Positions 3,350 to 35,837 of a DNA stretch of 64,000 nucleotides are shown here, one piece after another (position 1 is the first letter of the stretch; each line of letters begins with the position of its first letter). The stretch is taken from positions 18,691,456 to 18,755,455 of the forward strand of contig CM022671.1 in the NCBI GenBank assembly GCA_012295275.1. Reading direction: 5' to 3'. This stretch comes from Chrysomallon squamiferum (lineage: Eukaryota; Mollusca; Gastropoda; Neomphalida; Peltospiridae). The position numbers and the translations under genes are program-made. The notes below the pieces were generated by a model that was given only the letters and a program-made list of their open reading frames with translations, made no database searches and was not told the origin of the DNA.

Positions 3350-3410
<61 letters not shown>

Positions 3411-6587: not shown

Positions 6588-6648
<61 letters not shown>

Positions 6649-11140: not shown

Positions 11141-11494
11141 ATCATGAGTTAACAAATAAATTACGCACCTAAAAGAAATGACCCAAATACGAAGCGAATC
11201 CATACGGTTCAGTTCCCTTTGTCGATGTACCAAGACACACGTCATGTTGTGATATGATTGCGAAATAAATGTAGACCAGGAAGAACAGTTCAGTGATCCG
11301 TAACCTGTTATAAGAAACCTTCAACTTGTCAGCCGAGGTACGTGCTAAACACCGCGTTTGAGAAATACTCAAGCGAGTAAAAAGGCAGACATGAACATTG
11401 TTTTTTTATTTGTGTTTTATTGTTGTTGTTTTTTTATTATCTGTTATAATCATTATTATCATCATTATAATCATTATCATCATCATCATCATCA

Positions 11495-11544
<50 letters not shown>

Positions 11545-11640
11545 GCACAGACGGGTAAATAAAGATAAATTATGACCCGTCGTCTCATAAATTATTTCAC
11601 CCTACCCCGTGTGATACATAAAGCAGTGGGTGCTGCTTGA
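11141..11640. repeat. low-copy boundary repeat, copy 1
   Basis: About 500 bp matching 22943-23462 directly (~93% by eye). It includes an (ATC)n(ATT)n tract at about 11476-11544 and a conserved stretch around the palindromic TGACGTCA at about 11639. It marks the left end of units 1 and 2 and is absent from the left end of unit 3. A 66-aa minus-strand frame is open in both copies but resembles no known protein. Confidence 0.7.
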
Positions 11641-11806
11641 CGTCACTAGGCAACGTCCTGCTAATCTAGTTTCAAGCTGAAATTTCTTAGAAGCTTTATA
11701 TGCGAAACAGACGTTTTTATATTTTCTATGAAAACTCAAGATCTAATGAAATATGTTTCTAGTGAAAGAGAGTGAGATCTGTTCAGAAGAAGAGAAAATA
11801 CAACAG

Positions 11807-11810
<4 letters not shown>

Positions 11811-11892
<82 letters not shown>
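11811..11892. repeat. (GA)n microsatellite downstream of family member 2
   Basis: The same position relative to the gene carries (GA)n in unit 2 (23639-23688) and unit 3 (35725-35836), with differing lengths. Confidence 0.95.
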
Positions 11893-11893
<1 letters not shown>

Positions 11894-12185
11894 AATACTA
11901 AATAAATAAACAGGAAATACACAGGAAAAAACCAACTTCACATTTTATTGAAAACATTTGTTTATTAAGAAAATTAAAATTCCCGTGTATGGTTATTTTG
12001 TGTATATTTCAGTTTATGCGCATTTGTACATGGTTTTGATTGAGGACCTTATTAAATTTACATTTGTGTGTATGGTTGAATGCAAAATTATTTGTTAGCA
12101 TGTCTGAATATAAAATATTATATTATATTCTTCATATGAATATACAGAATAAATGATCGCGCTCTGGGTAGATATCCAGAATTTG

Positions 12186-15100
12186 TTAAATGTTATAAAG
12201 AGTAACTGCAAACACAGAAAACAGAGGCAGTAAGACATTCGGAAACATAGCTGGTGATGAATTGATGCTTCTTTCTATTTCTGCCATCCGAGCTCTCTTC
12301 TCGTACTCCGGTAAACTGCAGTATGGATATTTGATTCCACTGAAGAACTTTCCGTAAATAGTTTGAACAGATTTGCAATCGCCTGTGACAGGTTCCACAT
12401 AGCATTTGATGAGCCGATCAAAAAAACTGAAAACAAATTTGGTTTGAAAGATGATAAATTCAGTTCATTGTTATAACAAATGGATTATTTTTCTAATATT
12501 AGTTAGTTATTACCCGCCGCAACCATAACATTTCTCAGACGTTACCCATTGTCCAAATCTGTTTCTTATTTACATCATACATCAAACCAATTATACAAAG
12601 ACACCGATATTATTTTTACAATGTGAACAGCATGCATCGTAATAAAACTCCTTCCAATGAGACATGGTCCACTTATGGAATATAACACAAATACAATTAA
12701 ATATTACTGAATAAAATAACATGAAAACAATAATGTGTGATGGTATATTTCAATATTTAACCTTTTGTAAAATGTATTTCTTTCCTGTAAAACATTCCAT
12801 GTAGTGGAACGGGATATAACATGCAATTGAAGTCAGAATGTGTAAGATGATTTTAAAATATTCACTTAGTAAAACCTATTATAACTGAAAAACAGCATTC
12901 GAAAATTAGTAAATTTTGAAGGACTAAAATACAAAACAAATACAAAAAGGTAAAAGGAAAAAAAAAGATAATGTTGAAATGCAAGGTAGTAACTCACGTG
13001 CAAAGTGCATCAAATGTGTACTTAACACTGTGGTAGGAGTTCTGCTGAAGGCTCCGCATGATGTCAGACTTGGCACGGTTTAAGCAGGACGGTGCCGTAC
13101 TAAATAAACTCTTCAGACATGTACTCTTTTCAGAAAATTCTGCATTAGAAGATAAGTTAGTTTCATAGTATAATAAAGTATTGCATTAATATATGTGTAA
13201 ATAATTAACTAACTAAACTGATTAACTCACTAACTAACTAACTAAATAAATAGATAAATAAGTAAATTAACAATAACAGACGTACAGAAAGATCGCTTAT
13301 TGTCTTTAACGACATATAATTATCAGTTAAAACTATATTTACTATTCTGATAAATTTTGCTATCAAACACACATGCGCATGTGCACCATTTTCCTAGAAA
13401 CTAATGAACCTATTTACAACACAAACCTATGCCTGTCCACGTACCATAAGAAGAATTACATATATTACCAATACTAAATTCAGTCATTGTATACAGTTTT
13501 ATCAACAGTAATCATTCAAAACAAGAAACCTCTGAAATACAGTCATCAAAGTCATTCAAGTTGAAATGTTAGCTAGTTCATACAGTCTAACGCTGTCTTT
13601 GTCTATCTCTGTCTTTGTCTATCTCTCTCTCTGTCTCTCTGTTTCTCTCTTTGTGTTTTAATATTCAAGAAAATATGGTTTGGTGCCAAATATTTCCAGT
13701 GTACAATTGTTAAAAATGTATAAAATTATATTTGTTACTTTGGCGATATAAACAGAATATTTTGTAATCGGTACCTTTACTATTGTCACATAAATACTGA
13801 AGACTCTCTCGCCATTTAGTTACGTTAAAGATGAGGTCTAGCAGTTTTCTCTCTGTTGGATTATCACGACATTCGTTAATAGGCCCCTGCATGCAGTCAA
13901 CCACAGACTTCATTGATGATCTCAAATACAAAATATTTACGTTCATTAAATACAAAACACAGACACAGTGTCTGTAATGGATGTACATATATATATGGTA
14001 CGACAAGAACGCGCCATGACAAAACAGTACTGAAATAATGAGTGTTTGTGAAAACATATAGAAAAACCGAAGAAGGATGAATGTAAATTCGGTTTTACCA
14101 AGTAATTTCAAAATAATACTGTTAATAATTAAGATTGTTTTCTGGGTTTTTTAAATTATAAGCTTAACTGTAAGAAATATATAAAGTTTATGAACAATTA
14201 AGAACAATCAACTTTTGAGTAATGTACTTTTAAAAACAGGCACTTTTTGACAAATTTGCTGTTATATTTAACATTGTTACATTTCACATACTGTTGTAGT
14301 CACCTATTTCATTCATATATTCATTCATGTATTTAAGGACTGTTCGCTTAAGAATTACTTACGTCTAACAATTTTCCCGAAAGCTATAATTATTAGAATT
14401 ACCTGCAGAATGTCATGTTATCGTAAAGAGAAAGCTCATTAGAGTAGAGTGGCGATTTGTACATGCAGTTCTGTGTCTCAGAGTTGGCACTGGTGACGTC
14501 ACAGTAGCCATAAACCAGACTCACTGGAAGAAAAACCAATAAATTGAAAGAATGTATAAAAATTTACATCTACGGTTGTTACTGTGGTTTCAGCTGAGAT
14601 TGCCACAGCGATTAATAATAGTTATATAATGGTTGCATAATAGAAAGATACAGATTTGAGGAAAATGACAGCTGCTAAGACTATGGTTGTTGCAAAATAG
14701 TTAGAAATTACGACATTAGTTCTAAAGTAAATAAAACTTGTAAAGCAGTGGTCAGAAATTATGTAGTTAGTTCAGAAGTGGTTAAACTCGTAATGCCGTG
14801 GATAGAATGTACAAAGTTAGTTCAAAAGAGGTTAAAAGTGGTAACGCAATGAATGATGAGAAATTATGACGTTAATTTTAAGAATGATTAAATCTAGTGG
14901 TAAATCGTCTCCCTGGGCTCTTTAGTCTTTTACTTAAACACGTCGCGGACATCCCTGAAGTCAGCAGAGTGTAGCTGACAAAAATTAATTAACAGGTTAA
15001 TTACGAAATGTTAAACTGTATTAAAGAAAGCTGTTTAGGTAAATATTAAATATGTTACGGATATTTTCAAAAACTGTACCTTAAAAGTAAAACAATATAA

Positions 15101-16162
15101 AATATTATAATAAGTAAAAAAAAAATAGCTACCAGCAGATTCTAAAGAAGGTAGGTATAATGCGATCCGTTTCTTAGTGAATAAGTTAGGACCAATTTTC
15201 TAAGTTAAAGAAACACAGAAAACAGTAGGCCTACATCTAAATATCGCAGAGGAAACTGTCCACAGCTTGAGTGAGGTCCTATAAGGGTTTTGCGAAGGGC
15301 CCTACTACGTTTACCGTCATATATGTCCATAATTATTATAATGGGAAACAAAAAAAGAAGAAAATATCTATGAACACAAAAAGGATTTAACAAATGTGGA
15401 CCTAGCTACTGAAATCTGTAACAGAATGTGATAAATAAATTCTTAAGAAAAATAAAATAAAGAAATAAAAAAAGAACCGAGTAATGACATTTAACACTAT
15501 CTTCACTAATTTGTCCGATAAAATTAACATCGATTTTTAATAATGTTGGATTATGATGATCATTAGTACCGATGTTGATAATTTACATTTCATGAGACTA
15601 ATAGGTGAGATTTACTTAAATAAAAAAAAAATTCTTTGTATGAAAAAATAATTTTAGATCTAATGACTTATATTGTCTTTTTGTCTTTTTCTCCCCAGAG
15701 TCAAAATTTGACATGGTTATAGTAAAATAAACCGTCAATTTAAATGCCGTCGTTTTGGCATCGATCTTGGAATAAATGACCCCAACAGGCAAAGGAGCAG
15801 TTTATACTGCTTGTAATAGCCAGTGCGTATTTAATATCGGATTATTCATTTATATTAAGCGCAAAAATCAGCCCGACTTCCGGAAACCAGGGCATCCAGA
15901 GTGAACAAGTGTTAAGTTCATTAAACATTTCTCTCAATGACAACTTTATGTCTTGGTTCTCAAACATTCATCTGATATGCACACACGCGCACACCCGCAC
16001 ACAAACTGCGATAACACTAAGAATTTTTGTCAGTATAATTATATTGTTTGCGAAATCCATGTAACACCCTGGCTGAAAATCACCTCTGTACAGCATAACA
16101 ACTACTAGCAAAGGAAGTATTGTTAGGCTGTATTAAAATATAAATAAATAAATAAATACATA

Positions 16163-16203
<41 letters not shown>

Positions 16204-16638
16204 GTGTACACGGAATACTTAAATAATAACAATGCATTAAAAATATCGGACAACCGAGTTTGTTTCTCTTGCTCGTCTAAACCATTGTACGTATAGGAGT
16301 ACCTTTTCTGAAAACCAGAGTTGGATAGTACCTTTTCTGAAAACCTACTCGTCGAACACAGTTAACTTATTTTAAAGATTTATCATTACTACTTTTTTCA
16401 AAATGAAATTTGATATACTTGTATATTTCAGATCTTAAGTGATATGACCTTTTGAGAATTAATCAATCAGTTTCAGATTTTTTGGACCTCAAAAGGCGAA
16501 CGAAATAGACTGTCATGTTTTTATTCCGGGTATGCATTTTTGATTTAAAGCTGCTCTTTAACCAGCTAGAAGTTGGTCATTTTATTTATTAAGAAATACA
16601 TATATATTTCTTAGTAAATAAAATTGCGAACTTCTAGG

Positions 16639-16681
<43 letters not shown>

Positions 16682-16839
16682 CCAGTATCTACATTTTTAA
16701 CTATTTGAATTTTCTTAAACACGCTAAAATAAGAAAGATTAATTTGAACCAAAATATATATTTTCAAAACTTTAAGCTATTATTTACCTGTCGCCAAAGG
16801 AATAACAAATAGCACTGTTACGATCGTGACTCTTCCCAT
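12186..16839 (-). CDS. secreted 12-cysteine, predicted GPI-anchored protein (family member 2)
   Basis: Coding exons in transcription order: 16839-16788, 14523-14403, 13920-13775, 13139-12998 and 12426-12186. They total 702 nt (233 aa) with intron phases 1-2-1-2, the same as the plus-strand member. The signal peptide is MGRVTIVTVLFVIPLAT. All 12 mature cysteines are present, three per exon. N-glycosylation motifs are NMT (exon 2), NVT (exon 3) and NSS (exon 5). The C-terminal hydrophobic tail ends AVTLYNI after a serine-rich stretch, consistent with GPI attachment. All splice sites are canonical, so this copy looks functional. Against the 24-29 kb copy it differs at 29 coding nucleotides, 28 of them in amino-acid-changing codons. 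Exon 2 is the most divergent part. The receptor or ligand it serves is not evident from sequence. Confidence 0.82.
14905..14982 (+). pseudogene. 3' remnant of the 44-codon transmembrane ORF of units 2/3
   Basis: This matches the last ~26 codons of the ORFs at 27166-27300 and 39246-39380 (phase-preserved end, stop TGA). Here the upstream ~520 bp, including the start, is missing, and one arginine codon has become cysteine. Confidence 0.6.
15746..16117. other. ~370-bp segment present only in unit 1
   Basis: Units 2 and 3 read straight from TTTAAATG into GAAGTATTGTTAGG, whereas unit 1 has ~370 bp between these points. It includes a CA-rich tract near 15980-16003. It is either an insertion in unit 1 or a deletion shared by units 2 and 3. 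No clear target-site duplication was identified. Confidence 0.6.
16163..16203. repeat. (AAT)n microsatellite
   Basis: An orthologous tract occurs in unit 3 (about 40369-40422) and a much shorter one in unit 2 (about 28297-28309). Confidence 0.9.
16291..16343. repeat. 32-bp tandem repeat, unit 1 (about 2 copies)
   Basis: The repeat core is GGAGTACCTTTTCTGAAAAC, followed by a segment ending GTTGGATA. Unit 2 has four copies (28618-28734) and unit 3 has two (40723-40775). It lies in intron 1 of the 12-Cys genes. Confidence 0.8.
16645..16679. repeat. (GT)n microsatellite
   Basis: In intron 1 of family member 2, close to exon 1. Equivalents lie at 29040-29077 and 40985-41029. Confidence 0.9.
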
Positions 16840-17595
16840 ATTAAATACTTTATTATGAGTTAATTCCTGTATGGTCTCGATGAATTGCAAGCCCTCTCCG
16901 AAATGCAAATATTTGTCGTCCTTGTGGAATTTAATTTAAAAATAAAAAAGTCACGTACTTTTCCAAAAATAGTTCGGCCTAAGTCACTCCTCCATGAACG
17001 ATTGATTTACATTTAAACTCTTTAACAAAATTATGGTTAATTTACATCAGCATTCACACGTATGTTTTACTTTATAAGAGGATAAATTCATCCTTTCGTT
17101 TTTGGATAATGTTTGTTCAATGCATCAAAATGTGATTTCAATACACGCGTTCGATATGACAAATGGTGTTCTTTTCATTACTCAAAGCGACAGGGCGTTT
17201 GCAACTAAAACATTACCCAGTTTTATCACTTTATTTTAATTTATTTGGAAGCAACAGTCATTTACAAAAACGTGCTAAACTTTTTTTCGTTAAGTATCTG
17301 GATCGGTCCCACTGGCTCGACCCGTTTGGATTACGGTGAATTTTTTGGTATTGCGCAATTGTACTCCATCCTGGATTAACTTGGAAAAACCGGTTTATAC
17401 AGGATTATATGTTCTTTTGTAACGTGTTTTTTAATAAGAAAAACGTATTTATAAATGACAAATATTGTAAAATACAAAATAAAAGAGAATGCAAAGAAAT
17501 TGTTTTGTAAAGTGTATTTATCTTGGAGATCAGACAAATCATTTTAATGCCTTTGGCTGGAGTTACAGCCTTTATCGACTCCTTTAGCTTAAATG

Positions 17596-17680
<85 letters not shown>

Positions 17681-18683
17681 CGAGAGAGAGAGAGAATGTC
17701 TTTGTTTCGCTCAGTTGTGCATAATCTTTATAATAATTCTTTCGTATTATTACTATTCTTATTCTATGATGACCATCATGATGATAATGATTAAGAAGGG
17801 TAACTTAAAAGAGACAACTATCACTATTTTTATTAATATGTGATATAATTTTAGTAATTATCATCTCTGAACATTCCAAAAATGTTTTTATCATTAAACA
17901 GAACACAGATTATCAGCCAAGGGTACGTGAACTCAACAGTCATGTTCAAACTTGTTACAGGAATTTAGTGGTAAAAGAAAAACAGCAGAAAGACACAAGC
18001 ACTGACATACACTGTTCTCCTTTGTAATAAATGTTGACTTTTCTGATGACAAAGCCCTTCTGTCTCATACTCTCAGTGACATCAACAAACAATTAGGGCT
18101 GAAAATATACACAAGTGACAAACAGACAAAAAACAAAAAAAATATGTTCAGAAAAAATTTATGTCAATCTATTTTGATAAAAAAAGAAAAAAAAAAGAAA
18201 AAAAGAACTGCATTTATCTTACAAACATATCTGCAGACATAGAGGAAATAACTTCAGTATCAACAATCCCATAACAAATCCAGGTCCACATTCTCTTTGG
18301 AGATCGACATTTTATTCAAGAAAATAAAACTGAAGCTGCATCCTATCAACTCTCCTTTATAGCTCCCAGTAATGGTGGTCAACAGAAAATGATTTAAAAC
18401 TCACAAAGCTTTCAAAACATAATGAGAATATTCCTACGAGAGAAAATATTAAAACACAGATAAATAAAATAAAAAAATTAATGAGTTTGAAATTACCAAA
18501 CAAAACAAAATGAACAACATGAATCACCATTATGCAAAGCATAACATTAACTTTTGATATTCAAAAGTTGCCACTTTGTACAGATTCTAAAATAAACTTT
18601 CTCAATTTAATTCAAATTACATGATCATACCTTTTATGAGCAGTAGTTATAACAATATTAGGCTGGTTAATTTTTTGCTTATA
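16840..18683. other. divergent intergenic region of unit 1, 5' part
   Basis: Upstream of family member 2 there is no gene. It contains a compound (TA)n-(GA)n microsatellite (about 17599-17695) that also occurs in unit 2 (30036-30150). The GA part is absent from unit 3. The region between family member 2 and the TMEM243 fragment must hold the promoters of both, but no core promoter motif could be fixed. Confidence 0.5.
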
Positions 18684-19017
18684 CAGGTACCGGAACAATT
18701 ATCCGGACTCCTTGGGTCCTGAGGCATTCCGGATTTCTGGGTTTTCCGGTTTTGTGGTACCAAGGCATCTAAATACGTAAATAATTAGGCATAAACATTT
18801 TAAAATTAAAAACATAAAGAAAATTGAAAATACTGTGGCGATTCGACAGGTAAACAGTGCGGCGAGTGAATGAACGCCACGCGGCTTGAAAGAGTAGTTC
18901 CGGTCTGGTGAAGACAACACCCGCGCGCGCGAGAACTATGAAAATAGCGTCGGGAAAAAACTTCAGGTTTTCTGGTCTTTCCGGATTTAGGACGCCGGAT
19001 AATTGGTCCAGGACCTG
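18684..19017. mobile_element. 334-bp MITE, pogo/Tigger-like TIRs, TA target duplication (unit 1)
   Basis: The left end CAGGTACCGGAACAATTATC and right end GATAATTGGTCCAGGACCTG are imperfect inverted repeats of ~24 bp or more. The element is flanked by TA on both sides (18682-18683, 19018-19019), the target preference of Tc1/mariner-pogo elements. It has no transposase. The ORFs at 18769-19110 are incidental. A same-length copy lies at the matching place in unit 2 (31117-31450). Unit 3 has a ~1.7-kb deletion here. Assignment to pogo/Tigger rests on the CAGG-type end and TA duplication only. Confidence 0.65.
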
Positions 19018-20190
19018 TAGGGTACCTGTAGTGTACTTAATTAAATGGCCAGTCATGACCGACTTCACACTGGCTTCACCGATGTACAGTGGAAGATCTG
19101 GATAATTCATCTGGATAATTCAACACACATTTGGTTTCAGTTTTTAGAATACATGTGAGCAGTAATTTCTTGAAATGAAATCTGAAAAGAGGATGAATAA
19201 ACACATATTTTTGCAGTTTTTTGACTGTTGCATTTGGAAACACAGGGTCAAGAATGGCTACGAATTGTGATAGGTCACAAAGTGGTCAACAGAAAGAAGT
19301 GATGGTCCCCTCTTTTGCACCCTAAGAGTTATTTTGCAAGAATAGGATTACCTAACTAAATTATTAGCCTTTTACAAGTCTTTTATGTTATAAAGATGCA
19401 TGACTTTAACATTAATATACATTGTCCATTTCAAAATAATAATAATAAAAAAAAATAAAAATAAAAATATATCTCACAAAGAAAACTTTGGAGACAGAGA
19501 ATTTGTATTTATTTGGTATATTCTAAAATGGCTATTAACTGTTCTATTAATTAAACATTAATGTACTTGTAAAATTAAATTATACTGTAAAGAATACATA
19601 ATTGTTGGAGTTTTTGTTGTTGTTTTTCTTTTTTATTATTAGTGTTTCAGAGGTCCTTCACAAAATGTCCTATTTGAAATGTTAATGATTTAACAGATGC
19701 TATAAATTTTCTTAAATGTTTGAAACAAGATCATCAGTTTTTATTTGCATATATTTAGAATCAGACTGTTTTTGCAATCACATCATCAAACTCTTTGGTG
19801 TATTAAACATATAGACCTAAATAATGTAAAATAAAATGTACATTCACCATTCAAATACGTAAACGTGCATTACTTATCTGCATGTGATGAGATAGAAACA
19901 GACATACTTATGTAAGTATAGACTACATAGTACACACAGATAAATATATACATATGTATGTATATCACTATTTAGGATGGAAGTAGCATTGATGTACGAA
20001 TAAAAATGAACTTTTTTAAATAAAACAAATTAATAATGAAAATTAATGACAAACTGAAATAAACTATATTGCGATGAGAGTTTTATTCTTGTAGCTGCCG
20101 TTTCGTTTCTTGCAGATATACTTTTATAACCTATATCCTATTATGCATTACGCCAAAATATTCATATAATTGACTGGTATCACTGCGGAT

Positions 20191-20316
20191 ATGGCGCTAC
20201 ATCGAATGGAAATCCCTGAAAGGAAGTTGATTTTGGGCATTTTAATTTTCCCGATGATTCTATATACATTAGTGAAAATGGTTGAGTGTTGTGAGAACGC
20301 CATAACGAAGAAGTGA
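20191..20316 (+). CDS. 41-aa predicted single-pass membrane protein ORF (unit 1 copy)
   Basis: ATG to TGA, 42 codons. A charged N-terminus (MALHRMEIPERK) is followed by ~15 hydrophobic residues (LILGILIFPMILYTL) and a short tail with CC and KK. The same ORF is intact at 32648-32773 and 42837-42962, with only one conservative change in the last. A good 3' splice-site sequence (TTTCGTTTCTTGCAG) lies ~90 bases upstream of the ATG. It could be a micropeptide gene or an upstream ORF in the TMEM243 leader. No known small membrane protein was recognised. Flanking DNA is equally conserved between units, so conservation alone does not prove coding. Confidence 0.35.
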   Translation: MALHRMEIPERKLILGILIFPMILYTLVKMVECCENAITKK

Positions 20317-20858
20317 CAGTAAAGACAGATTATAATTACGAATAATAATTGTTATCATGTGATAAATTTAAAATAGAAATGATGAAACAGACATGAAATT
20401 AAAATATGTGCAAATCTATTCAAATAATCATTTATAATAAAATGTTTTAATAATTAAACAATGCAAACCTCACATGAGACGATAATTGTTATTAACAAGT
20501 TCTTTTTTTTTTTTATTATTTATTTAGTTATTAAATTTATTATTATTATTTTTGTTATTATTAATCTTGTTTTGTTTCTTTTCCACTAAAACTGCTTATC
20601 AGTTTCAAATGTTTGTCACATAATGCTTTAATTCACATATGAATGTCGCCAATCTCATTTTTGCAAGGTAAATATCTTCTGATAGAAAGGATTTTTAGTT
20701 TTATTATTATTAACACGTACACACATTCATAAAATTTTAAATTTTATCATTGTAGCATCAATATTCAAAATAAAAATACATTTGACTAGATTCTTACAAG
20801 CTATAATTATAAATGTATAATATATTATATTTATGATATGATTTTTCTCCTCTTACAG

Positions 20859-21777
20859 CATATACCTGGATTGAATAAATTTGAATGTGATGAATTAAAT
20901 CAAAACATACTTGAGTAGATCATTGTATGTGGTGAACCATGAATACCAGACAGTATGATGACCCGGCAGAAATGCCACTCTTTGGTGAACGAAGACCAAT
21001 AGTTAGCTCATAAAGATACTGTCACATGAACATTCAATTTTTGTTGCAGTGGCTTCACGGATCATGAAGTTGTTTGAGACACATGTTTATACATGCATCA
21101 GAATTTATGACAGTTATGTAAAAATGGCAGCAGAAATGGTTATTTATCTTTATGCTATAGAATGAGACAATTAAAAGACAACCAGTAAAGCAGCTCTTAA
21201 AACACCACAGATGATATTTATAAAATTCAAATAAAGATTCAAATATTAATTCTTATTTTCACAACTGTACACTTTGGACTTTGGTGCTGTTTGTAATAAG
21301 ACTTGGTTAAGTGACTGTAATTATTTGTTCCTATTACATACAACACTGCTAGTTATATTATTCAGTACAACACTGATAATAATTAAAGTACACTAATGTA
21401 ATTGCAGCTATTATGAATCAGAATATGTGTATGCTGTGACAACAGTAACATAAAGGATTTAAAATTATATTTTTTTATCAAGATTGAGTTTATTCAGTTT
21501 TTTCCTAATTTACAAAACAGGTTAGTGTTATAACTGAAGTTTACATTTTATAAAAGGATAGGTATTAAGGATGATTTTGATAATTAACCTTTTTAACAAG
21601 CTTTAAAAAAACTATTGAGTCGTAAATAATTATAACCGCACATACACATACACACACACACACTGCTAAAGTATAATTTATTCCATTCCACATATATATA
21701 TATATTAAAAAAAATTGTTTTTGTAGGACCGTCTTATAAATCTGGTTGTTGGTGCTTTTACTGCAGTAGTTGTGCTG
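20859..21777 (+). pseudogene. TMEM243 5' fragment, unit 1 (coding exons 1 and 2 only)
   Basis: A duplicate of the first two TMEM243 coding exons. Exon 1 starts at an AG acceptor at 20858, has its ATG at 20939 and ends at 21001 before GTTAGC. Exon 2 is 21727-21777. Both exons are open and splice-compatible and encode MNTRQYDDPAEMPLFGERRP, then DRLINLVVGAFTAVVVL. The exon 1 donor context is slightly weaker (ATA|GT) than in unit 3 (ATG|GT). The remaining exons exist only at 45824-46491. This fragment can make full-length protein only by splicing over ~24 kb across units 2 and 3. Confidence 0.75.
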
Positions 21778-22942
21778 GTAAGTAATGTCTTGAATATTTA
21801 CTAGATTCTTTCTGTCATTTCATGCAAATCATCAATAATAAAAATAAAAAAACAACAACACAAGAACAATCTGCTCATACATTAACATTTCGGTACCTAA
21901 CACAAAAGCTTGTAAAATGATTGTGCTAATTATCACATTTTTAAACCAGAACAAATTTATCTTATTATTTTATATGGAAAATGACCCTCCTTTTAAGACT
22001 GCTGTTTTAGATTATAATCAGTAAAATATTTTCCAGTGATTGTTTTTAACCTTTTAAAAAATTACAGTATTAGCAAACTTCAATTTTCTGTTTAAAAGTT
22101 AAGCCATAATTAGTTATTTTATTATGACTGATCACCGTCATTTAATCTGTAGAAATCTACAACAATGCATTTAAAATAAATAACCATGCAGGTACATTCA
22201 GTTTTCAGCAAAATAAGGTCAGCTAGATAAAATTAATGAAACAATGTGAGGTAACATAGAGTTAGCATAAATTAATGAGTCTTTTTAAGAAAAAATAAGA
22301 TGCCTCAACATTTGCTCATTAATTATTCATTTTTAGTTAGAAAGCGTTCATTCACATAATCTCAAGTAGATAAAATTTTGCTAATTGTTAGTTCAGATAA
22401 AATTGCAATCATAATAAAGAAATGTTAAAGTAAATAGGCCACATAAACAGACATTTTGAAGCCTGCTGAATAAAAAATAAATATAAATCTCAAACTTGTA
22501 CTTCTGTCATTATTTAAAAATAGAGGCAACAGGATTGTTAGAAATGGGAATGCCAGAAAAAGGGAAACATAATAATAGAGTTTAAGAAAAATCAAAGCTT
22601 ACTTGCAGGTAAACACACACGAACAGCATTTCACATTTTCATTATTGTGTAAAATGCATGCATTCGTTTATGAAACAACATAAACATTATCATTTAAATT
22701 AATATCCTATGAATATGTTAATGAATTATCCATTAATGATGATGATGGTGATCATGATGATCATGACAAATAAATAAAATAAAATTATAGTAGATGAGGT
22801 TGGAACCTCTCTTGATGACAAATTTTAATCAGGACCATAAAAGGTCTTAATTATAATGGCATTTTTCATAAACATAATAATAACAGTTGTACTTAATGAT
22901 GTCATTATAAAACATGTCAGTGTGAACTGGAAATTTTAGAAA

Positions 22943-23255
22943 ATCATAAGTTAACAAATAAATTACACACCCAAAAGAAATGACCCAAATACGAAGCTAA
23001 TCCACACGGTTCAGTTTCCTTTGTCAATGTACCAAGACACACGTCATGTTGTGATATGATTGCGAAATAAATGTAGACCAGGAAGAACAGTTCAGTGATC
23101 CGTAACCTGTTATAAGATACCTCCAACCTGTCAGCCAACGTGCGTGTTAAACACCACGTTTGAGAAATACGTAAGCGAAATAAAAATGCAGACATGAACA
23201 TTTTTTATATTTTTTTTTATTGTTTTTTTAAAAAATTTTATTATCTATTATTATT

Positions 23256-23290
<35 letters not shown>

Positions 23291-23462
23291 TATTATTACT
23301 ATTATTATTATTATTATTATTATTGTTATTATTGTTATTATTGTTATTATTGTTATTACACAGACGGGTAAATAAAGATAAATTATGACCCGACGTCTCA
23401 TAAATTATTTCACCCTACCCCGTTTGATACATAAAGCAGTGGGTGCTGCTTGACGTCACTAG
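22943..23462. repeat. low-copy boundary repeat, copy 2
   Basis: Direct copy of 11141-11640, including the (ATC)n(ATT)n tract (about 23259-23356). It sits exactly at the unit 1/unit 2 junction. Confidence 0.7.
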
Positions 23463-23632
23463 GCAACGTCGTGCTTAATCTAGTGGTTTCGTCTTCTCCT
23501 ACAGCAACAACAGAAATCAGTAACTGTCACATTCCGCTGGTGTGTTTGCACGGTTTCAAGCTTGAATATCTTAAAAGCCTTTAAATAAGTGCATGCGTGA
23601 GTTGTAGTAGACGTATATACATATACACACAC

Positions 23633-23638
<6 letters not shown>

Positions 23639-23688
<50 letters not shown>
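23639..23688. repeat. (GA)n microsatellite downstream of family member 3
   Basis: Shorter than the equivalent tracts in units 1 and 3. Confidence 0.95.
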
Positions 23689-23689
<1 letters not shown>

Positions 23690-23976
23690 AATACTAAATA
23701 AATAAACAGGAAATACACAGGAAAAAACCAACTTCACTTTTTATTGAAAATATTTGTTTATTAAGAAAATTAAAATTCCCGTGTCTGGTTATTTGTGTAT
23801 ATTTCAGTTTATGCGCATTTGTACATGGTTTTGATTGAGGACCTTATTAAATTTACATTTGTGTGTTTGGTTGAATGCAAAATTATTTGTTAGCATGTCT
23901 GAATATAAAATATTATATTATATTCTTCATATATACAGAATAAATGATCAACCTCTGGGTAGATATCCAGAATTTG

Positions 23977-26900
23977 TTAAATGTTATAAAGAGTAACTGC
24001 AAACAGAGAAAACAGAGGCAGTAAGACATTCGGAAACATAGCTGGTGATGAATTGATGCTTCTTTCTATTTCTGCCATCCGAGCTCTCTTCTCGTAGTCC
24101 GGTAAACTGCAGTATGGATATTTGATTCCACTGAAGAACTTTCCGTAAATAGTTTGAACAGATTTGCAATCGCCTGTGACAGGTTCCACATAGCATTTGA
24201 TGAGCCGATCAAAAAAACTGAAAACAAATTTGACAAACTTCAGTTCATTGTTATAACAAACGGATTACTTTTCTAATATTAGTTAGTTATTACCCGCCGC
24301 AAACATAACTTTTCTCAGACGTTACCCATTGTCCAAATCTGTCTCTTATTTACATCATACATCAAATCGATTATACAAATATTCCGATATTATTTTTACA
24401 GTGTGATTGTATAATGTACAGATAACAGCATGCAGCGTAATAAAACTCCTTCCAAATGAGGCATGGTCCACTTATGGAATATAACACAAATACAATTACA
24501 TATTACTGAATAAAATAACATGAAAACTATAATGTGTGATGGTATATTTCAATATTTAACCTTCTGTAAAATTTATTTCTTTCCTGTAAAACATTCCATG
24601 TAGTGGAACGGGATATAACATGCAACTGAAGTCAGTTAAAATGTGTCAGATGATTTTAAAATATTCACTTAGTTAAACCTATTATAACTGAAAAACAGCA
24701 TTCGAAAATTAGTAAATTTTGAAGGACTAAAATACAAAACAAGTACAAAAAGGTAAAAGGAAAAAAAAAGATAATGTTGAAATGCAGGGTAGTAACTCAT
24801 GTGCAAAGTACGTCATATGTGTACTTAACACTGTGGTAGGAGTTCTGCTGAAGGCTCCGGATCATGTCAGACTTGGCACTGTATACGCAGGACGGTGCCG
24901 TACTAAATAAACTCTTCAGACATGTACTCTTTTCAGAAAATTCTGCATTAGAAGATAAGTTAATTTCATAGTATAAGAAAGTATTGCATTAATATATGTG
25001 TAAATAATTAACTAACTAAACTGATTAACTTACTAACTAAATAACTAAATAAATAAATAAGTAAATTAATAATAAAAGACGTACAGAAAGATTGTTTATT
25101 GTCTTTAACGACATATAATCATCAATTAAAACTATATTTACTATTCTGATAAGTAAATCACGTTTTCCTTTCACTGCTATCAAACATACACGCGCATGTG
25201 CACAATTTTCCTAGAAACTAATGAACCTATTTACAACACAAACCTATGCCTGTCCACGTACCATAAGAAGAATTACATATATTACTAATACTAAATACAG
25301 TCATTGTACACAATTTTATCAACAGCAATCATACAAAACAAAAAACCTCTGAAATACAAAGTCATTCAAGTTGAAATGTTAGCTAGTTCATACAGTCTAA
25401 CGCTGTCTTTGTCTATCTCTGTTTCTGTCTGTCTCTGTCTTTGTCTATCTCTGTCTGTGTCTATCTCTGTCTCTGTCTATCTCTGTCTCTGTCTCTCTGT
25501 TTCTCTCTTTGTGTTTTAATATTCAAGAAAATATTGTCTGGTGTCAAATATTTCCAGTGTACACTTGTTAAAAATGTATAAAATTATATTTGTTACTTTG
25601 GCGATATAAACAGAATATTTTGTAATCAGTACCTTTACTATTGTCACATAAATACTGAAGACTCTCTCGCCATTTAGTTACGTTTAAGAGGAGGTCTAGC
25701 AGTTTTCTCTCTTTTGGATTATCACGACATTCGTTAATAGGCCCCTCCATGCAGTCAACACCAGACTTCATTGATGATCTCAAATACAAAATATTTACGT
25801 TCATTAAATACAAAACACAGACACAGTGTCTGTAATGGATGTACATATATATATATGGTACGACAAGAACGCGCCATGACAAAACAGTACTGAGACAATG
25901 TGTGTTTGTGAAAACATATAGAAAAACCGAAGAAGGATGAATGTAAATTCGGTTTTACCAAGTAATTTCAAAACAATACTATTAATAATTAAGATTGTTT
26001 TCTGGGTTTTTTAAATTATAAGCTTAACTGTAAGAAATATATAAAGTTTATGAACAATTAAGAACAATCAGCTTTTGAGTAATACACTTTTAAAAACACG
26101 CAAATTTGCTGTTACATTTCACATACTGTTGTAGTCACCTATTTCATTCATATATTCATTCATGTATTTAATGACTGTTCGCTTAAGAATTACTTACGTC
26201 TAACATATTTCCCAAAAGCTATAATTATTAGAATTACCTGCACAATGTCATGCTATCGTAAAGAGAAAGCTCGTGAGAGTAGAGTGGCGAGTTGGACATG
26301 CATTTCTGTATCTCAGAGTTGGCACTGCTGAAGTCATAGTAGCCATAAACCAGACTCACTGGAAGAAACACCAATAAATTGAAAGAATCTATAAAAATTT
26401 ACATCTACGGTTGTTACTGTGGTGTCAGCTGACATTGCCACAGCGATTAATAATAGTTATATAATGGTTGCATAATAGAAAGATACAGATTTGAGGAAAA
26501 TGATAGCTGCTAAGACTATGGTTGTTGCAAAATAGTTAGAAATTACGACATTAGTTCTAAAGTAAATAAAACCTTTAAAGCAGTGGTCAGAAATTATGTA
26601 GTTATACCGTGGATAGAATGTACAAAGTTAGTTCAAAAGAGGTTAAAAGTGGTAACGCAATGATGAGAAATTACGAAGTTAATTTTAAGAATGATTAAAT
26701 CTAGTGGTACAACTATTAAAAATTACGGAAACTTCTCTTTATGACCAACACGTTCATGATTATAATGGAAGGTTTCATATATACCGATGATTAAAATGTA
26801 CAGAACCTCTTGGATTGCAGTAAGCTCGAAATCACCACTGTTAGTATTATGCATTTTCTAATGAACTAGAGTATATTACATTTATATGTGCTGAAATTCA

Positions 26901-27953
26901 TATTAGTTTACATATGTGACTATCATTTTCCAAAGAGCGTGAGCAAAAATAAAGGTGCTTCGGATTTATTCTTATAACACATGTGTTATGAATAAGTATG
27001 TTTGTTTTCAGCTAACTCGGAACTTATCAGTCCAAACGACACATAACATATCTACCCCGTAGATTTGACCACTAAGTGAAACAGAAATTGTCGTCCAGCC
27101 AAAATAATAAGCTTATATTTGTATATGAGCAACAGCATTTAATTATTGAACACAGTTGCCTAATAATGGCCACCAACTCCACAGTCCCACCCGTGTCTTA
27201 CTCCTCTTTGTTCTTTGTTGTCTCCTTCGTCTCGCTGGGCTCTTTAGTCTTTTACTTAAACACGTCGCGGACATCCCTGAAGTCAGCAGAGCGTAGCTGA
27301 CAAAAATTCCGTATGTCTCTCGCTAATGACCGTTAATTGTTAGGCCATTTCAGTTACTGGATTACTGTTAACTAACAGTAGATATTTAATTAATACATAC
27401 TGTTAGGTATATTTATAGAAATGAATGGTTAACATATTTACTTACTTTAATGATGCATACAGGTTAATTACGGAATGTTAAACTGTATTAAAGAAAGGTG
27501 TTTAGGTAAATATTAAATATAATATGTTACGGATATTTTTAAAAACTGTACCTTAAAAGTAAAACAATATAAAATATTATAATAAGTTAAAAAAATAGCT
27601 ACCACCAGATTCTGCAAGTGGGTAAGTATAAACTAAACTGCGATCCGTTTCTTAGTAAATAAGTTAGGATCAATTTTCTAAGTTAAAGAAACACAGAAAA
27701 CAGTAGGCCTACTACATCTAAATATCGCTGAGGAAACTGTCCACAGCTTGAACGAGGTCCTATTAGGGTTTTGCTAAGGGCCGTACTACGTAAGTTAAGA
27801 AAAAAACAAAAACTGTTTAACGTCATATATGTCCATAATTATTATAATGGGAAACAAAAAAAGAAGAAAATATCTATGAACACAAAACGGATTTTACAAA
27901 TGTGGACCTAGCTACTGAAATCTGTAACAGAATGTGATAAATAAATTCTTAAG

Positions 27954-27987
<34 letters not shown>

Positions 27988-28278
27988 CGAGTAAAGACAT
28001 TTAACACTATCTTCACTAATTTGTCCGATAAAATTAACATCAATTTTTAATAATGTTGGATTATGATGATCATTAGTACCGATGTTGATAATTTACATTT
28101 CATGAGACTAATAGGTGAGATTTACTTAAATAAAAAATCTTGTTTGTATGAAAAAATAATTTTAGATTTAATGACTTATATTGTCTTTTTCTTCTCAGAG
28201 TCAAAAGTTGACATGGTAAATAAAAAAATAAACCGTCAGTTTAAATGGAAATATTGTTAGGCTGTATTAAAATATAAA

Positions 28279-28309
<31 letters not shown>

Positions 28310-29039
28310 GTGTACACGGAATATTAAATAATAACAATGCATTACATCTATTTACCGAAATTATCAACTTCTACAGTGAAAACGAGAAATGTTCGGTAAT
28401 GAAAATAGTCTTTAAATCTCGTTTCTAAGAAAGAATGAAAAGTGCCAAAGCTGGAACATTTTGTGTATGTGATTCCTTTTAGTGATAGAATCAAATCTTT
28501 GTAAGGAAAAAACTAAAATTAAAAATAAAAACAGCTGAGCTAGATAAGATCCGAGTAGTTTGAAAATATCGGACAACCGAGTTTGTTTCTCTGCTCGTCT
28601 AAACCATTGTTCATATAGGAGTACCTTTTCTGAAAACCACAGTTGGATAGGAGTACCTTTTCTGAAAACCACAGTTGGATAGGAGTACCTTTTCTGAAAA
28701 CCACAGTTGGATAGGAGTACCTTTTCTGAAAACCTTCTTGTCGAAAACAACTTATTTTAAAGATTTATCATTGCTACTTTTTTCAAAATGAAATTTGATA
28801 TACTTGTATATTTCAGATCTTAAGTGATATGACCTTTTGAGAATTAATCAATCAGTTTCAGATCTTTTGGTCCTCAAAAGGCGAACGAAATAGACTGTCA
28901 TATTTTTATTCCGGGTATGCATTTTTGATTTAAAGCTGCTGTATAAACAGCTAAAAGTTGGTCATTTTATTTATTAAGAAATACATATATATTTCTTAGT
29001 AAATAAAATTGCCAACTTCTAGCTGTACATATATATATA

Positions 29040-29074
<35 letters not shown>

Positions 29075-29237
29075 TGTTTCCAGTATCTACATTTTTAACT
29101 ATTTGAATTTTCTTAAACACGCTAAAATAAGAAAGATTAATTTGAACCAAAATATATATTTTCCAAACTTTAAGCTATTATTTACCTGTCGCCAAAGGAA
29201 TAACAAATAGCACTGTTAAGATCGTGAATCTTCCCAT
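23977..29237 (-). CDS. 12-cysteine family member 3, with defective exon 4 donor and a lost cysteine
   Basis: Expected exons: 29237-29186, 26358-26238, 25778-25633, 24942-24801 and 24217-23977 (702 nt, same phases as its paralogues). All exons are open, but two defects stand out. The exon 4 donor reads ATGAGT instead of GTGAGT, because the plus-strand base at 24800 is T rather than C. The first mature cysteine in exon 2 is tyrosine (TAC TAT GAC against TAC TGT GAC). If intron 4 is retained, translation stops at once (TGC ACA TGA). That would leave a protein ending after exon 4, without the last three cysteines and the GPI tail. The gene is therefore a young pseudogene, a soluble truncated form, or uses another donor. 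The signal peptide is MGRFTILTVLFVIPLAT. Confidence 0.7.
25405..25515. repeat. TCTCTG/TCTATC-type tandem repeat
   Basis: Interrupted hexa/dodecanucleotide repeat in intron 3 of family member 3. The counterparts are 37500-37612 in unit 3 and a much shorter tract at about 13593-13650 in unit 1. ORFs across it are artefacts. Confidence 0.85.
27012..27300 (+). CDS. 44-aa predicted single-pass membrane protein, nested antisense in intron 1 of family member 3
   Basis: The likely start is ATG 27166 (context ATAATGG), giving 44 residues. The in-frame ATG at 27076 would give 74. The N-terminus has an N-glycosylation motif (NST), then a hydrophobic segment LFFVVSFVSLGSLVFYL and a polar tail ending KSAERS. 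Codons are markedly GC-richer than the surrounding intron, which hints at real coding. A clean acceptor (TTTGTTTTCAG) ends at 27011, so this may be the last exon of a small gene. The plus-strand ORF is duplicated intact at 39246-39380 and truncated in unit 1. The product is not recognised. Confidence 0.4.
28618..28734. repeat. 32-bp tandem repeat, unit 2 (about 3.7 copies)
   Basis: Copies start at 28618, 28650, 28682 and 28714 and are almost identical. Units 1 and 3 have two copies each at the matching place. The 112-codon minus-strand ORF here reads through the repeat and is not a gene. Confidence 0.9.
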
Positions 29238-30033
29238 ATTAAATACTTTATTATGAGTTAATTCCTGTATGGTCTCGATGAATTGCAAGCCCTCTCCGAA
29301 ATGCAAATATCTGTCGTCCTTGTGGAATATAATTTTACTGTTATTATGCGCAGGTGTTATTTCATACTTAAATGTGTGCAGCATGAAATGACAGATAACG
29401 AGGAACTTGAATACAAAAAATGCATTCTTGACATCTAAAAAGTCACGTTCTTTCCCCAAAATATAAGTCCCTCCTCCAAGGATCGATTTACGTTTAAACT
29501 GTTTAACAAAATTATGGTTAATTTACTTCAGTATTCATACGTATATTTTACTTTGTTTTTGGATAATGTTGGTTCAATGCATCAAAATGTGATTTCAATA
29601 CACGCGTGCAATATGACAAATGGTGTTCTTTTCATTACTCAAAGAGACAGGGCATATGCAACTAAAACTTTATTTTAATTTATTTGTAAGCAACAGTCAT
29701 TTACAAAAACGTGCTAAACGTTTTTCGTTAAGTATCTAGATCGGCCTCTCTCGCTCGACCCGTTTGGATTACAGTGAATTATTTGTTTTTGCGTAGTTGT
29801 ACTCCATCCTGGATTAACTTGGAAAAACCGGTTTATACAGGATTATATGTTCTTTTGTAACGTGTTTTTTAATAAGAAAAACGTATTTATAAATGACAAA
29901 TATTGTAAAATACAAAATAAAAGAGAATGCAAAGAAATTGTTTTGTAAAGTGTATTTATCTTGGAGATCAGACAAATCATTTTAATGCCTTTGGCTGGAG
30001 GTACAGCCTTTATCGACTCCTTTAGCTTAAATG

Positions 30034-30035
<2 letters not shown>

Positions 30036-30118
<83 letters not shown>

Positions 30119-30150
30119 GAGAGAGAGAGTGAGAAAGAAAGAGAGAGAGA
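30036..30150. repeat. compound (TA)n-(GA)n microsatellite
   Basis: A TA run, then an interrupted GA run, in the divergent intergenic region of unit 2. Confidence 0.9.
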
Positions 30151-31116
30151 TGTCTTTGTTTCGCTTAGTTGTGCATAATCTTTATAATAATTCTTTCTTA
30201 CTATTACTATTCTTATTCTATGATGACCATCATGATGATAATGATTAAGAAGGGTAACTTAAAAGAGACAACTATCACTATTTTTATTAATATGTGATAT
30301 AATTTCAGTAATTATCATCTCTGAACATTCCAAAAATGTTTTTATCATTCAACAGAACACAGTTTACGTGAACTCAACAGTCATGTTCAAACTTGTTACA
30401 GGAATTTTGTGATAAAAGAAAAACAGCAGAAAGACACAAGCAGTGACATACACTGTTCTCCTTTGTAATAAATGTTGACTTTTCTGATGACAAAGCCCTT
30501 CTGTCTAATTCTCTCAGTGACATCAACAAACAATTAGGGCTGAAAATATACACAAATGACAAACAGACAAAAAGAAACATAAATAAGTTCAGAAAAAATT
30601 TATGTCAATCTATTTGAATAAAAAAAAAAAAAAAAAAAAAAAAGAACTGCATTTATCTTACAAACATATTTGCAGACACAGAGGAAATTGTTTCATAACA
30701 ATCCCATAACATGTCCAGGTCCACATTCTCTTTGGAGAACAACATTTTATTCAAGAAAATAAATCTGAAGCTGCCTCCTATCAACTCTCTTTTATAGTTC
30801 CCAGTAATGGTGGTCAACAGAAAATGATCTAAAACTCACAAAGCTTTCAAAACATAAGAATATTCCTACGAGAGAAAATATTAAAACAGTTAAATAATAA
30901 AAAAAAAAATGAATGACAGTTTGAAATTACCAAACAAAACAATATGAACAACATAATCACCATTATGCAAAGCATAACATTAACTTTTGATATTCAAAAG
31001 TTGCCAATTTATTCAGATTCTAAAATAAACTTTCTCAATTTAATTCAAATTACATGATCATACCTTTTATGAGCAGTAGTTATAACAATATTAGGCTGGT
31101 TGATTTTTTGCTTATG

Positions 31117-31450
31117 CAGGTACCGGACCAATTATCAGGACTCCTTGGGACTTGAGGTATTCCGGATTTCTGGATTTTCCGGTTTTCCGGTACCAAGGCA
31201 TCTAAATACGTAAATAATTTGACATAAACATTTTAAAATTAAAAACATAAAGAAAATTGAAAATACTGTGGCGATTCGACACGTAAACAGTGCGGCGAGT
31301 GAATGAACGCCATGCGGCTTGAAAGAGTAGTTCCAATCTGGTGAAGACAACACCCGCACGCGCGAGAACTATGAAAATAGCGTCGGGAAAAAACTTCAGG
31401 TTTTCTGGTCTTTCCGGATTTAGGACGCCGGATAATTGGTCCGGGACCTA
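31117..31450. mobile_element. 334-bp MITE, pogo/Tigger-like TIRs (unit 2 copy)
   Basis: Same element and same length as 18684-19017, with ends CAGGTACCGGACCAATTATC and GATAATTGGTCCGGGACCTA. The left TA target base pair has decayed to TG here. It was inherited through the unit duplication rather than by independent insertion. Confidence 0.65.
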
Positions 31451-32647
31451 TAGTGTACCGGTAGTGTACTTGTGCATTCTGTTTCATGAAATTAAATGGC
31501 CAGTCGTGACCGACTTCACACTGGCTTCACCGATGTACAGTGGAAGATCTTGATAATTCATTCGGTGATTGGCAACACGCATTTGGTTTCAGTTTTTAGA
31601 ATACATGTGAGCAGTAATTTCTTGAAATGAAATCTGAAAAGAGGATGAATAAACACATATTTTTGCAGTTTTTTGACTGTTGCATTCTGAAACTCAGGGT
31701 CAAGAATGGCTACAAATTCAGATAGGTCACAAAGTGGTCAACAGAAAGAAGTGATGGTCCCTTCTTTTGCACCCTAAGAGTTATTTTGCAAGAATAGGAT
31801 TACCTAACTAAATTATTAGCCTTTTACAAGTCTTTTGTGTTATAAAGATGCATGACTTTAACATTAATATACATTGTCCATTTCAAAATAATAATAATAA
31901 AAAAGTAATAATAAAAATAAAAATAAAAATGTATCTCACATAGAAAACTTTGGACTAGAGAATGTGTATTTATTTGGCATATTCTAAAATGGCTATTAAC
32001 TGTTCTATTAATTAAACATTAATGTACTTGTACAATTAAATTATACTGTAAAGAATACATAATTTTTGGAGTTTTTGTTGTGGTTTTTCTTTTTTATTAT
32101 TAGTGTTTCAGAGGTCCTTCACAAAATGTCTTATTTGAAATGTTAATGATTTAACAGATGCTATAAAGTTTCTTAAATGTTTGAAACAAGATCATCAGTT
32201 TTTATTTGCATATATTTAGAATCAGACTGTTTTTGCAATCACATCATCAAATTGTTTGTTGTATTAAACATATAGACCTAAATAATGTAAAATAGAATGT
32301 ATTCACCATTCAAATACGTAAACGTGCATGACTTATCTGCATGTGATGAGATAGAAATAGACATGTTTATGTAAGTATAGACTACATAGTACACACATAA
32401 ATATATACATATGTATGTATATCACTATTTAGGATGGAAGTAGCATTGATGTACGAATAAAAATGAACTTTTTTAAATAAAACAAATTAATAATGAAAAT
32501 TAATGACAAACTGAAATAAACTATATTGCGATGAGAGTTTTATTCTTGTAGCTGCCGTTTCGTTTCTTGCAGATATACTTTTATAACCTATATCCTATTA
32601 TGCATTACGCCAAAATATTCATATAATTGACTGGTATCACTGCGGAT

Positions 32648-32773
32648 ATGGCGCTACATCGAATGGAAATCCCTGAAAGGAAGTTGATTTTGGGCATTTT
32701 AATTTTCCCGATGATTCTATATACATTAGTGAAAATGGTTGAGTGTTGTGAGAACGCCATAACGAAGAAGTGA
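32648..32773 (+). CDS. 41-aa predicted single-pass membrane protein ORF (unit 2 copy)
   Basis: Identical at the protein level to the ORF at 20191-20316. Just after the stop, a GTAAAG present in units 1 and 3 is ATAAAG here, so a possible donor downstream of the ORF is lost in this unit. Confidence 0.35.
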   Translation: MALHRMEIPERKLILGILIFPMILYTLVKMVECCENAITKK

Positions 32774-33307
32774 CAATAAAGACAGATTATAATTACGAAT
32801 AATAATTGTTATCATGTGATAAATTTAAAATAGAAATGATGAAACAGACATGAAATTAAAATATGTGCAAATCTATTCGAATAATCATTTATAATAAAAT
32901 GTTTTAATAATTAAACAATGCAAACCTCACATGAGACGATAATTGTTATTAACAAGTTTGTTTTTTTTTTGTTTTTTTTAATACATTTATTTAGTTATTA
33001 AATTTATTATTAATCTTGTTTTGTTTCTTTTCCACTAAAACTGCTTATCAGTTTCAAATGTTTGTCACATAATGCTTTAATTCACATATGAATGTCGCCA
33101 ATCTCATTTTTGCAAGGTAAATATCTTCTGATAGAAAGGATTTTTAGTTTTATTATTATTAACAAGTACACACATTCATAACATTTTAAATTTTATCATT
33201 GTAGCATCAATATTCAAAATAAAAATACATTTGACTAGATTCTTACAAGCTATAATTATAAATGTATAATATATTATATTTATGATATGATTTTTCTCCT
33301 CTTACAG

Positions 33308-34020: not shown

Positions 34021-34066
<46 letters not shown>

Positions 34067-35720: not shown

Positions 35721-35837
<117 letters not shown>

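Follow-up and report, generated by a model that had tools for sequence, protein, structure and literature searches.

Background

Several duplicated families of cysteine-rich secreted proteins provide a framework for the locus described here. In the phospholipase A2 and three-finger toxin families of snake venoms, the subject of the ASSET paper on snake venom multigene families, the genes occur as tandem or other duplicates and coding change exceeds intron change while the fold is kept (PMC2711939). The small serum protein (SSP) genes of the habu snake form a tandem array of small cysteine-rich genes for which the ORF ratio and the divergence of introns were compared, and their authors propose that amino acid changes arise soon after duplication and are later masked by neutral change (PMC7150969). 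Among gastropods, conotoxin genes encode secreted cysteine-rich products with conserved introns and very unequal exon rates (PMC3862624).

The locus analyzed here, four tandem copies of an unnamed gene of Chrysomallon squamiferum, each with five exons and an open 702-nt frame, resembles each of these systems in part. Relative to the snake venom families as presented in PMC2711939, the effect is weaker and limited to one branch and two exons, whole-segment switching was not seen, the sequences are unrelated, and the product is probably membrane-anchored rather than a free toxin. The SSP proposal matches the stem-versus-tips pattern of the snail array, although the SSP genes have 10 cysteines, four exons and an unrelated sequence, and a GPI-type tail is not described in the available text of PMC7150969. 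Conotoxins, as characterized in PMC3862624, are short venom peptides, whereas the snail protein has 233 residues and an anchor-type C-terminal tail. Searches of Pfam, the PDB and the protein database returned no sequence match between the snail family and the conotoxin or snake venom families. The closest counterpart is LOC121369239 of Gigantopelta aegis, a member of the same family and the only such protein found for that species in the database searched.

Organization of the locus

The window, the whole stretch of 64,000 nucleotides analyzed, contains all four members, with member 1 inverted beside members 2–4 (Table 1). The gene model of member 2 has GT-AG boundaries throughout. Members 2, 3 and 4 derive from the copying of a unit of ~12 kb that contains a single gene together with the beginning of the neighboring TMEM243 gene; the joined exons of the complete TMEM243 match Pfam PF10856 (E = 4.6e-34).

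Table 1. Coordinates of the genes, repeat units and sites within the window
Feature	Position	Strand	Details
Member 1	2474..8453	+	exons 2474-2522, 5630-5753, 6003-6148, 7472-7607, 8207-8453
Member 2	12186..16839	-	exons 16788-16839, 14403-14523, 13775-13920, 12998-13139, 12186-12426
Exon 2 of member 2	14403..14523	-	fastest exon: 11/121 vs member 3, 10/121 vs member 4
Exon 4 of member 2	12998..13139	-	second fastest: 8/142 vs member 3, 11/142 vs member 4
Member 3	23977..29237	-	exons 29186-29237, 26238-26358, 25633-25778, 24801-24942, 23977-24217
Exon-4 donor of member 3	24799..24800	-	AT; GT in members 1, 2, 4
Member 4	36077..41190	-	exons 41139-41190, 38318-38438, 37732-37877, 36900-37041, 36077-36317; intact, 12 Cys
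Repeat unit 1	11141..22939		member 2 and 5' fragment of TMEM243 gene (self-comparison)
Repeat unit 2	22943..35345		member 3 and 5' TMEM243 fragment (self-comparison)
Repeat unit 3	35546..46500		member 4; runs into complete TMEM243 (DUF2678) gene

An assembly or haplotype artefact, in which two alleles were placed in tandem as units 2 and 3 or polishing errors account for the exon and splice differences, is very improbable. Intron divergence between members 3 and 4 is 1.9%, which is near the published heterozygosity of 1.38% for this species (PMC7142155), and the genome assembly combined noisy long reads with short-read data. Against this, member 2 is ~3.5% apart from members 3 and 4, which have coding changes in common, and the units carry different insertions and have different endpoints with respect to TMEM243.

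Protein features and the wider family

The member 2 protein has 233 residues, with a signal peptide, 12 cysteines and a hydrophobic C-terminal tail. Judged by hydropathy only, the N-terminus is hydrophobic, as in a signal peptide, in all five sequences compared (mean 1.96–2.1), as are the last 17 residues (mean 1.64–1.95), a candidate for a cleaved tail with an attachment site. The proteins are probably secreted and, because of the hydrophobic tail, probably GPI-anchored. Pfam contained no family above its curated cut-off, the best for member 2 being Colipase-like (13.2 bits against 27), and nothing convincing for the further family sequences (sets A1 and A6); the PDB sequence search gave no relevant match, and the AlphaFold model (mean pLDDT 36.6) was too poor for a fold search. 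The halves formed by exons 2+3 and exons 4+5 agree in cysteine spacing and intron phases. In sequence comparisons for an internal duplication that would make this a two-module protein, hhalign found no similarity between the halves and 35–192 of 1000 shuffles scored at least as high as the observed cysteine-anchored comparison.

Relatives on the same chromosome, all with 12 cysteines and five exons, make up another tandem array and one additional locus. The 12 cysteines are invariant and the layout is alike in these two distant loci and in the protein of Gigantopelta. In the family of the Chrysomallon genome the cysteines are in register, the intron phases are 1-2-1-2, and introns 2 and 4 directly follow the third and ninth cysteines. 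LOC121369239 (P0001), which is uncharacterised, is 61.5% identical to member 1, the copy most similar to it, retains all 12 cysteines and is the only full-length match outside the Chrysomallon genome in the database searched. A further open reading frame (P0002) has only an exon-2 stretch in common with P0001 (31/44 residues), followed by unrelated repeats. Full-text searches, which covered few subscription journals, found no paper on LOC121369239 and nothing on GPI-anchored cysteine proteins in gastropods or other molluscs. Apparently, this wider family, which occupies three or more loci of a single chromosome, is undescribed so far.

Exon and intron divergence

A preliminary description, made by eye, reported 29 differences in 702 nt between members 2 and 3, and the recount returned the same total and the same distribution over exons 1–5 (2, 11, 6, 8 and 2). 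Nearly all of the changes do alter amino acids, with 26 of the 27 differing codons specifying another residue, but the single synonymous change that had been counted becomes three, alongside 26 nonsynonymous changes, when paths through codons with two changes are considered. The further claim that exons diverge faster than introns holds for exon 2 and for exons 1–4 pooled, but fails for the coding sequence as a whole, and exon 5 shows the opposite. Intron counts were filtered for gap-adjacent columns, simple repeats and mismatch-rich windows, the last of these largely a single poorly aligned block in intron 1. The filtered introns differ by 3.5% (101/2898), and the whole coding sequence (29/702, 4.1%) is therefore not significantly faster (p = 0.43); unfiltered introns 2–4 differ by 4.5% (74/1641). 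Relative to the filtered introns, exon 2 (11/121, p = 0.005) and exons 1–4 (27/461, p = 0.018) are faster and exon 5 (2/241, p = 0.022) is slower. When this poorly aligned portion is retained, the values for exons 1–4 and exon 2 become p = 1.0 and p = 0.17.

Strong diversifying selection throughout the coding sequence, as originally proposed, was not borne out by codon-based estimates. Omega is 2.38 for members 2 and 3 (binomial P = 0.11), 1.31 for members 2 and 4, 0.46 for members 3 and 4, and 0.88 for members 1 and 2. Codon models for members 1–4 (238 columns) gave an M0 tree omega of 0.98 and a branch omega of 2.31 (2dlnL 2.09), and with M1a versus M2a at 2dlnL 3.93, omega = 1 was not rejected. 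Members 3 and 4, the youngest pair, have no excess of amino acid change and look neutral or constrained.

The tree omega of 0.98 is what nearly free drift would produce, with little constraint beyond the cysteines, amino acid changes accruing at the neutral rate and any excess between member 2 and members 3/4 due to chance or the choice of baseline, an explanation that we consider quite possible although somewhat improbable. Between members 1 and 2, the exons (138/644, 21.4%) differ about as much as the aligned non-coding sequence (290/1221, 23.8%), and dN is near both dS and intron divergence elsewhere in the family as well, the second array (dN/dS 0.81, 0.87 and 0.84) among it. Drift is harder to reconcile with members 1, 2 and 4 retaining 12 cysteines and open frames over a long time, and with the distribution of changes on one branch.

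A proposed burst of change after duplication

On the branch that links member 2 to the common ancestor of members 3/4 there are 24 nonsynonymous and two synonymous changes, with 66 changes at 2738 intron sites. Five neutral baselines predict 10.7–18.4 nonsynonymous changes (P 0.0038–0.134), and the excess over the whole CDS loses significance when the intron baselines are left unfiltered (P 0.11 and 0.13), as drift would have it. Under all five baselines, however, exons 2 and 4, a choice made with the data already in view, exceed expectation (16 observed, 4.1–7.0 expected, P 0.0001–0.0033), and there is no surplus of synonymous changes (2 observed, 3.9–6.8 expected). Amino acid changes relative to neutral changes differ between the stem and the tips (p = 0.039). 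When polarised with member 1, 10 changes are derived in member 2, eight in the 3/4 ancestor and eight are ambiguous, thus both lineages changed.

The emphasis on exons 2 and 4 extends to members 1 and 2 (62.2/203.7 nonsynonymous, compared to 44.5/301.7 for exons 3 and 5, p = 2e-5). It is absent when member 1 is compared with the protein of Gigantopelta (54/86 and 81/129 identical, p = 1), exon 4 is not accelerated in the second array, and exon 2 over three comparisons has an odds ratio of 1.73 (p = 0.16).

A local mutational process, error-prone or clustered, that raised exon transversions and thereby mimicked selection is also highly unlikely. Transitions make up only 3 of the 24 nonsynonymous branch changes (0.50–0.56 expected, P = 4e-5 at 0.53), exons have five transitions and 21 transversions where introns have 38 and 28 (p = 0.001), and special polymerases have been proposed for the variable exon of cone-snail toxin genes (PMC3862624). 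The skew was, however, spotted after the fact, is missing in the second array and is weaker in members 1 and 2 (transitions in 19 of 56 single-change nonsynonymous codons); such a process is further opposed by the unraised synonymous count and by exon changes not clustered beyond chance (9/26 within 3 nt, 6.8 expected, p = 0.26).

It should be noted that two forms of gene conversion were set aside. Conversion from unlinked close copies was rejected because, in the 40 candidates scored out of 1023, the member 2 exons recur only at their own locus, and the other matches of the gene fall within short repeats or a dispersed repeat located in intron 1. GC-biased conversion cannot favor C-G or A-T changes, which account for 10 of the 26 exon changes on the branch.

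Interpretation

Because amino acid changes on the member 2–3/4 branch exceeded neutral expectation, chiefly in exons 2 and 4, positive selection may have acted in a burst after duplication and later ceased, a step with moderate support. The 12-cysteine scaffold is conserved while the remainder of the protein evolves at close to the neutral rate. Overall, this is a lineage-restricted, probably GPI-anchored family with a near-neutral coding rate, and the evidence for one burst of positive selection is moderate. The preliminary picture of a young duplicated family, secreted, probably GPI-anchored and with unusually fast protein change, is upheld; proper counting corrects the claim made by eye and places the signal in one branch and two exons. 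The complete explanation that fits best, and which we favor with reservations, is a young 12-cysteine array with near-neutral protein change, one burst of selection after duplication and a role in surface recognition.

That role is most likely recognition at the cell surface through residues that vary around a constant disulfide frame, with microbes, symbionts, gametes or other partners as candidates. A more specific account, which we regard as unlikely, would have unnamed 12-cysteine GPI-anchored receptors restricted to symbiont-bearing vent snails and their kin, in which tandem duplication is followed by short selected bursts in those exons that span cysteines one to three of either half, perhaps for symbiont or microbe recognition. 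With the disulfide frame kept and the rest nearly free, the array is a convenient case for questions of binding in a vent snail that houses bacteria.

Damage in member 3

The loss of the exon-4 splice donor and of one cysteine suggests that member 3 is probably now decaying and a possible pseudogene. Unspliced past exon 4, its next codon is TGA; the first conserved cysteine has become tyrosine, leaving 11 of 12, and the frame is still open. The AT donor and the Cys to Tyr change were overlooked in the preliminary description, whose chosen pair, members 2 and 3, includes this copy with a damaged splice site.

Layout and relatives of the tandem genes

The four members, each with five exons and a 702-nt frame, all lie within the window's first 41 kb. 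Their proteins are hydrophobic at the N-terminus and over the last 17 residues, and their 12 cysteines align in register; because such features match secreted GPI-anchored proteins, a secreted form with a putative anchor is predicted for them.

Outside this genome, protein searches recovered one full-length relative, P0001, the uncharacterised LOC121369239 protein of Gigantopelta aegis (identity 61.5% with member 1, 45% with member 2), together with P0002, an open frame matching the exon-2 stretch only; these searches rely on shared five-residue words, such that remote relatives may escape. Searching the genome with the member-2 protein at E up to 10 gave 19 matches, 17 of them in the cluster of members 1–4. 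The remaining two, weak and elsewhere on the same contig, are both full relatives, with exons 2–5 and intron phases as in members 1–4 and 20–21% identity to member 2. When these two are aligned with members 1 and 2 and P0001, the 12 cysteines are invariant. One of the two belongs to a second tandem array, in which three genes are intact across exons 2–5; in the fourth, no exon 2 was found and exon 5 is split into two separated pieces.

Positions of the genes, repeat-unit parts and neighbouring genes (C7, the contig that holds the window; window 43000-64000 is the stretch that contains all three neighbouring genes)
Feature	Position	Strand	Remark
Member 1	window 2474-8453	+	
Member 2	window 12186-16839	-	
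Member 3	window 23977-29237	-	
Member 4	window 36077-41190	-	
TMEM243-side unit parts	window 19900-22939, 32351-35345, 42539-45562		Block comparison of units
Complete TMEM243 (DUF2678)	window 43000-64000		Conserved neighbour
Myb-domain gene	window 43000-64000	-	Conserved neighbour
Succinyl-CoA ligase beta-type gene, start only	window 43000-64000		Conserved neighbour; ATP-grasp match
Third locus, L010	C7:15880000-15886500		One gene, same layout as members
Second tandem array, L011-L014	C7:34686000-34725999 (C7:34.687-34.725 Mb)		16 exon matches

Coding and intron divergence

As first counted, the coding sequences of members 2 and 3 show 29 differences in 702 bases (2, 11, 6, 8 and 2 in exons 1–5); their filtered introns differ at 101 of 2898 (3.5%). 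The proposal in the preliminary description that exons outpace introns held for exon 2 (p = 0.005) and for exons 1–4 pooled (p = 0.018) but not for the whole coding sequence (p = 0.43), with exon 5 slower than the introns (p = 0.022). The pooled difference disappears if a badly aligned part of intron 1 is kept (p = 1.0), and introns 2–4, unfiltered, differ at 74/1641 (4.5%). Where a single synonymous change had been reported, the Nei-Gojobori count is 3 synonymous and 26 nonsynonymous, for an omega (dN/dS) of 2.38 (P = 0.11). Corresponding values are 1.31 for members 2 and 4 (29 nonsynonymous, 6 synonymous), 0.46 for members 3 and 4 (7 and 4) and 0.88 for members 1 and 2. Under maximum likelihood, the four genes have an omega of 0.98; granting the stem, the branch joining member 2 and the ancestor of members 3 and 4, its own omega gives 2.31 with a 2dlnL of just 2.09. 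Exons 2–4 have an omega of 1.13 versus 0.76 for exons 1 and 5 (2dlnL 4.58), and M1a versus M2a across the four genes gives a 2dlnL of 3.93.

Possible excess of amino-acid change on the stem

Among the 37 variable coding sites of members 2–4, 26 changed on the stem, 2 in member 3 and 8 in member 4, and one has three states. The stem changes comprise 24 nonsynonymous and 2 synonymous, and the introns carry 66 stem changes in 2738 sites. From the intron spectrum, 13.0 nonsynonymous changes are expected (P = 0.008); four other baselines predict 17.6, 18.4, 10.7 and 12.3 (P = 0.113, 0.134, 0.004 and 0.004). Sequence comparison thereby lends moderate support to amino-acid change above the neutral expectation on the stem, a whole-sequence result that depends on the baseline. 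Support appears firmer for an excess in exons 2 and 4, with 16 changes versus 4.9, 6.7, 7.0, 4.1 and 4.7 expected (P from 0.0001 to 0.0033), though this grouping was made post hoc with the counts already known; exons 3 and 5 have 6, with 5.8–10.0 expected. Exons 2 and 4 taken together also change faster between members 1 and 2 (p = 2e-5) and members 2 and 3 (p = 0.0026), and show no acceleration between members 3 and 4 (p = 1) or between member 1 and P0001 (54/86 identical vs 81/129, p = 1).

Changes fell on both sides of the stem, since 10 are derived in member 2 and 8 in the 3/4 ancestor (8 are ambiguous). Adding P0001 as a third sequence leaves 49 residues unique to member 2 and 12 unique to member 1; the member-2 line is therefore the long one, irrespective of the root. 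Transversions make up 21/26 stem changes in exons versus 28/66 in introns (p = 0.001), a skew spotted afterwards and absent from the second tandem array. Transitions are strongly short among the amino-acid changes separating member 2 from members 3 and 4 (3/24).

Family-wide rates and probable copy loss

In the second array, dN/dS is 0.81, 0.87 and 0.84, and nonsynonymous divergence (0.14–0.19) is near that of filtered introns (0.13–0.14). By exon, values are 1.13, 1.91 and 1.46 for exon 2 and 0.66, 0.69 and 0.44 for exon 4; three comparisons combined give odds ratios of 1.73 for exon 2 (p = 0.16) and 0.88 for the whole coding sequence (p = 0.44). The family keeps its disulfide frame while the remainder changes at a roughly neutral rate, and, judging by form, its proteins would be surface recognition proteins. 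In snake venom genes (PMC2711939), snake serum protein genes (PMC7150969) and conotoxins (PMC3862624), coding sequence outpaces introns or exon rates differ strongly; these are evolutionary parallels and not kin.

Copies also arise and vanish, as member 3 and one second-array gene look damaged. The member 3 donor after exon 4 (window 24799-24800) reads AT, and codon 25 in exon 2 (26238-26358) turns the first conserved cysteine into tyrosine. Early decay or sequencing error likely accounts for both; member 3 may be a pseudogene, or a base error in the assembly may lie behind the two changes.

Repeat units and neighbouring genes

Members 2–4 each sit inside a repeat unit of ~12 kb that includes the start of the TMEM243 gene, which is complete only past the third unit (Pfam PF10856 match). 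The Myb-domain neighbour is presumably DMTF1, and we take the succinyl-CoA ligase gene to be SUCLG. In the TMEM243-side parts, many 500-column blocks are 0.4–4% diverged. Because this side is mostly less diverged than the gene side (unit 1, holding member 2, vs units 2 and 3), the comparison suggests that the units later exchanged sequence there. Window 14904-15746, in intron 1 of member 2, is a dispersed repeat with many copies genome-wide; it is common to all three units and was therefore inserted before the duplication.
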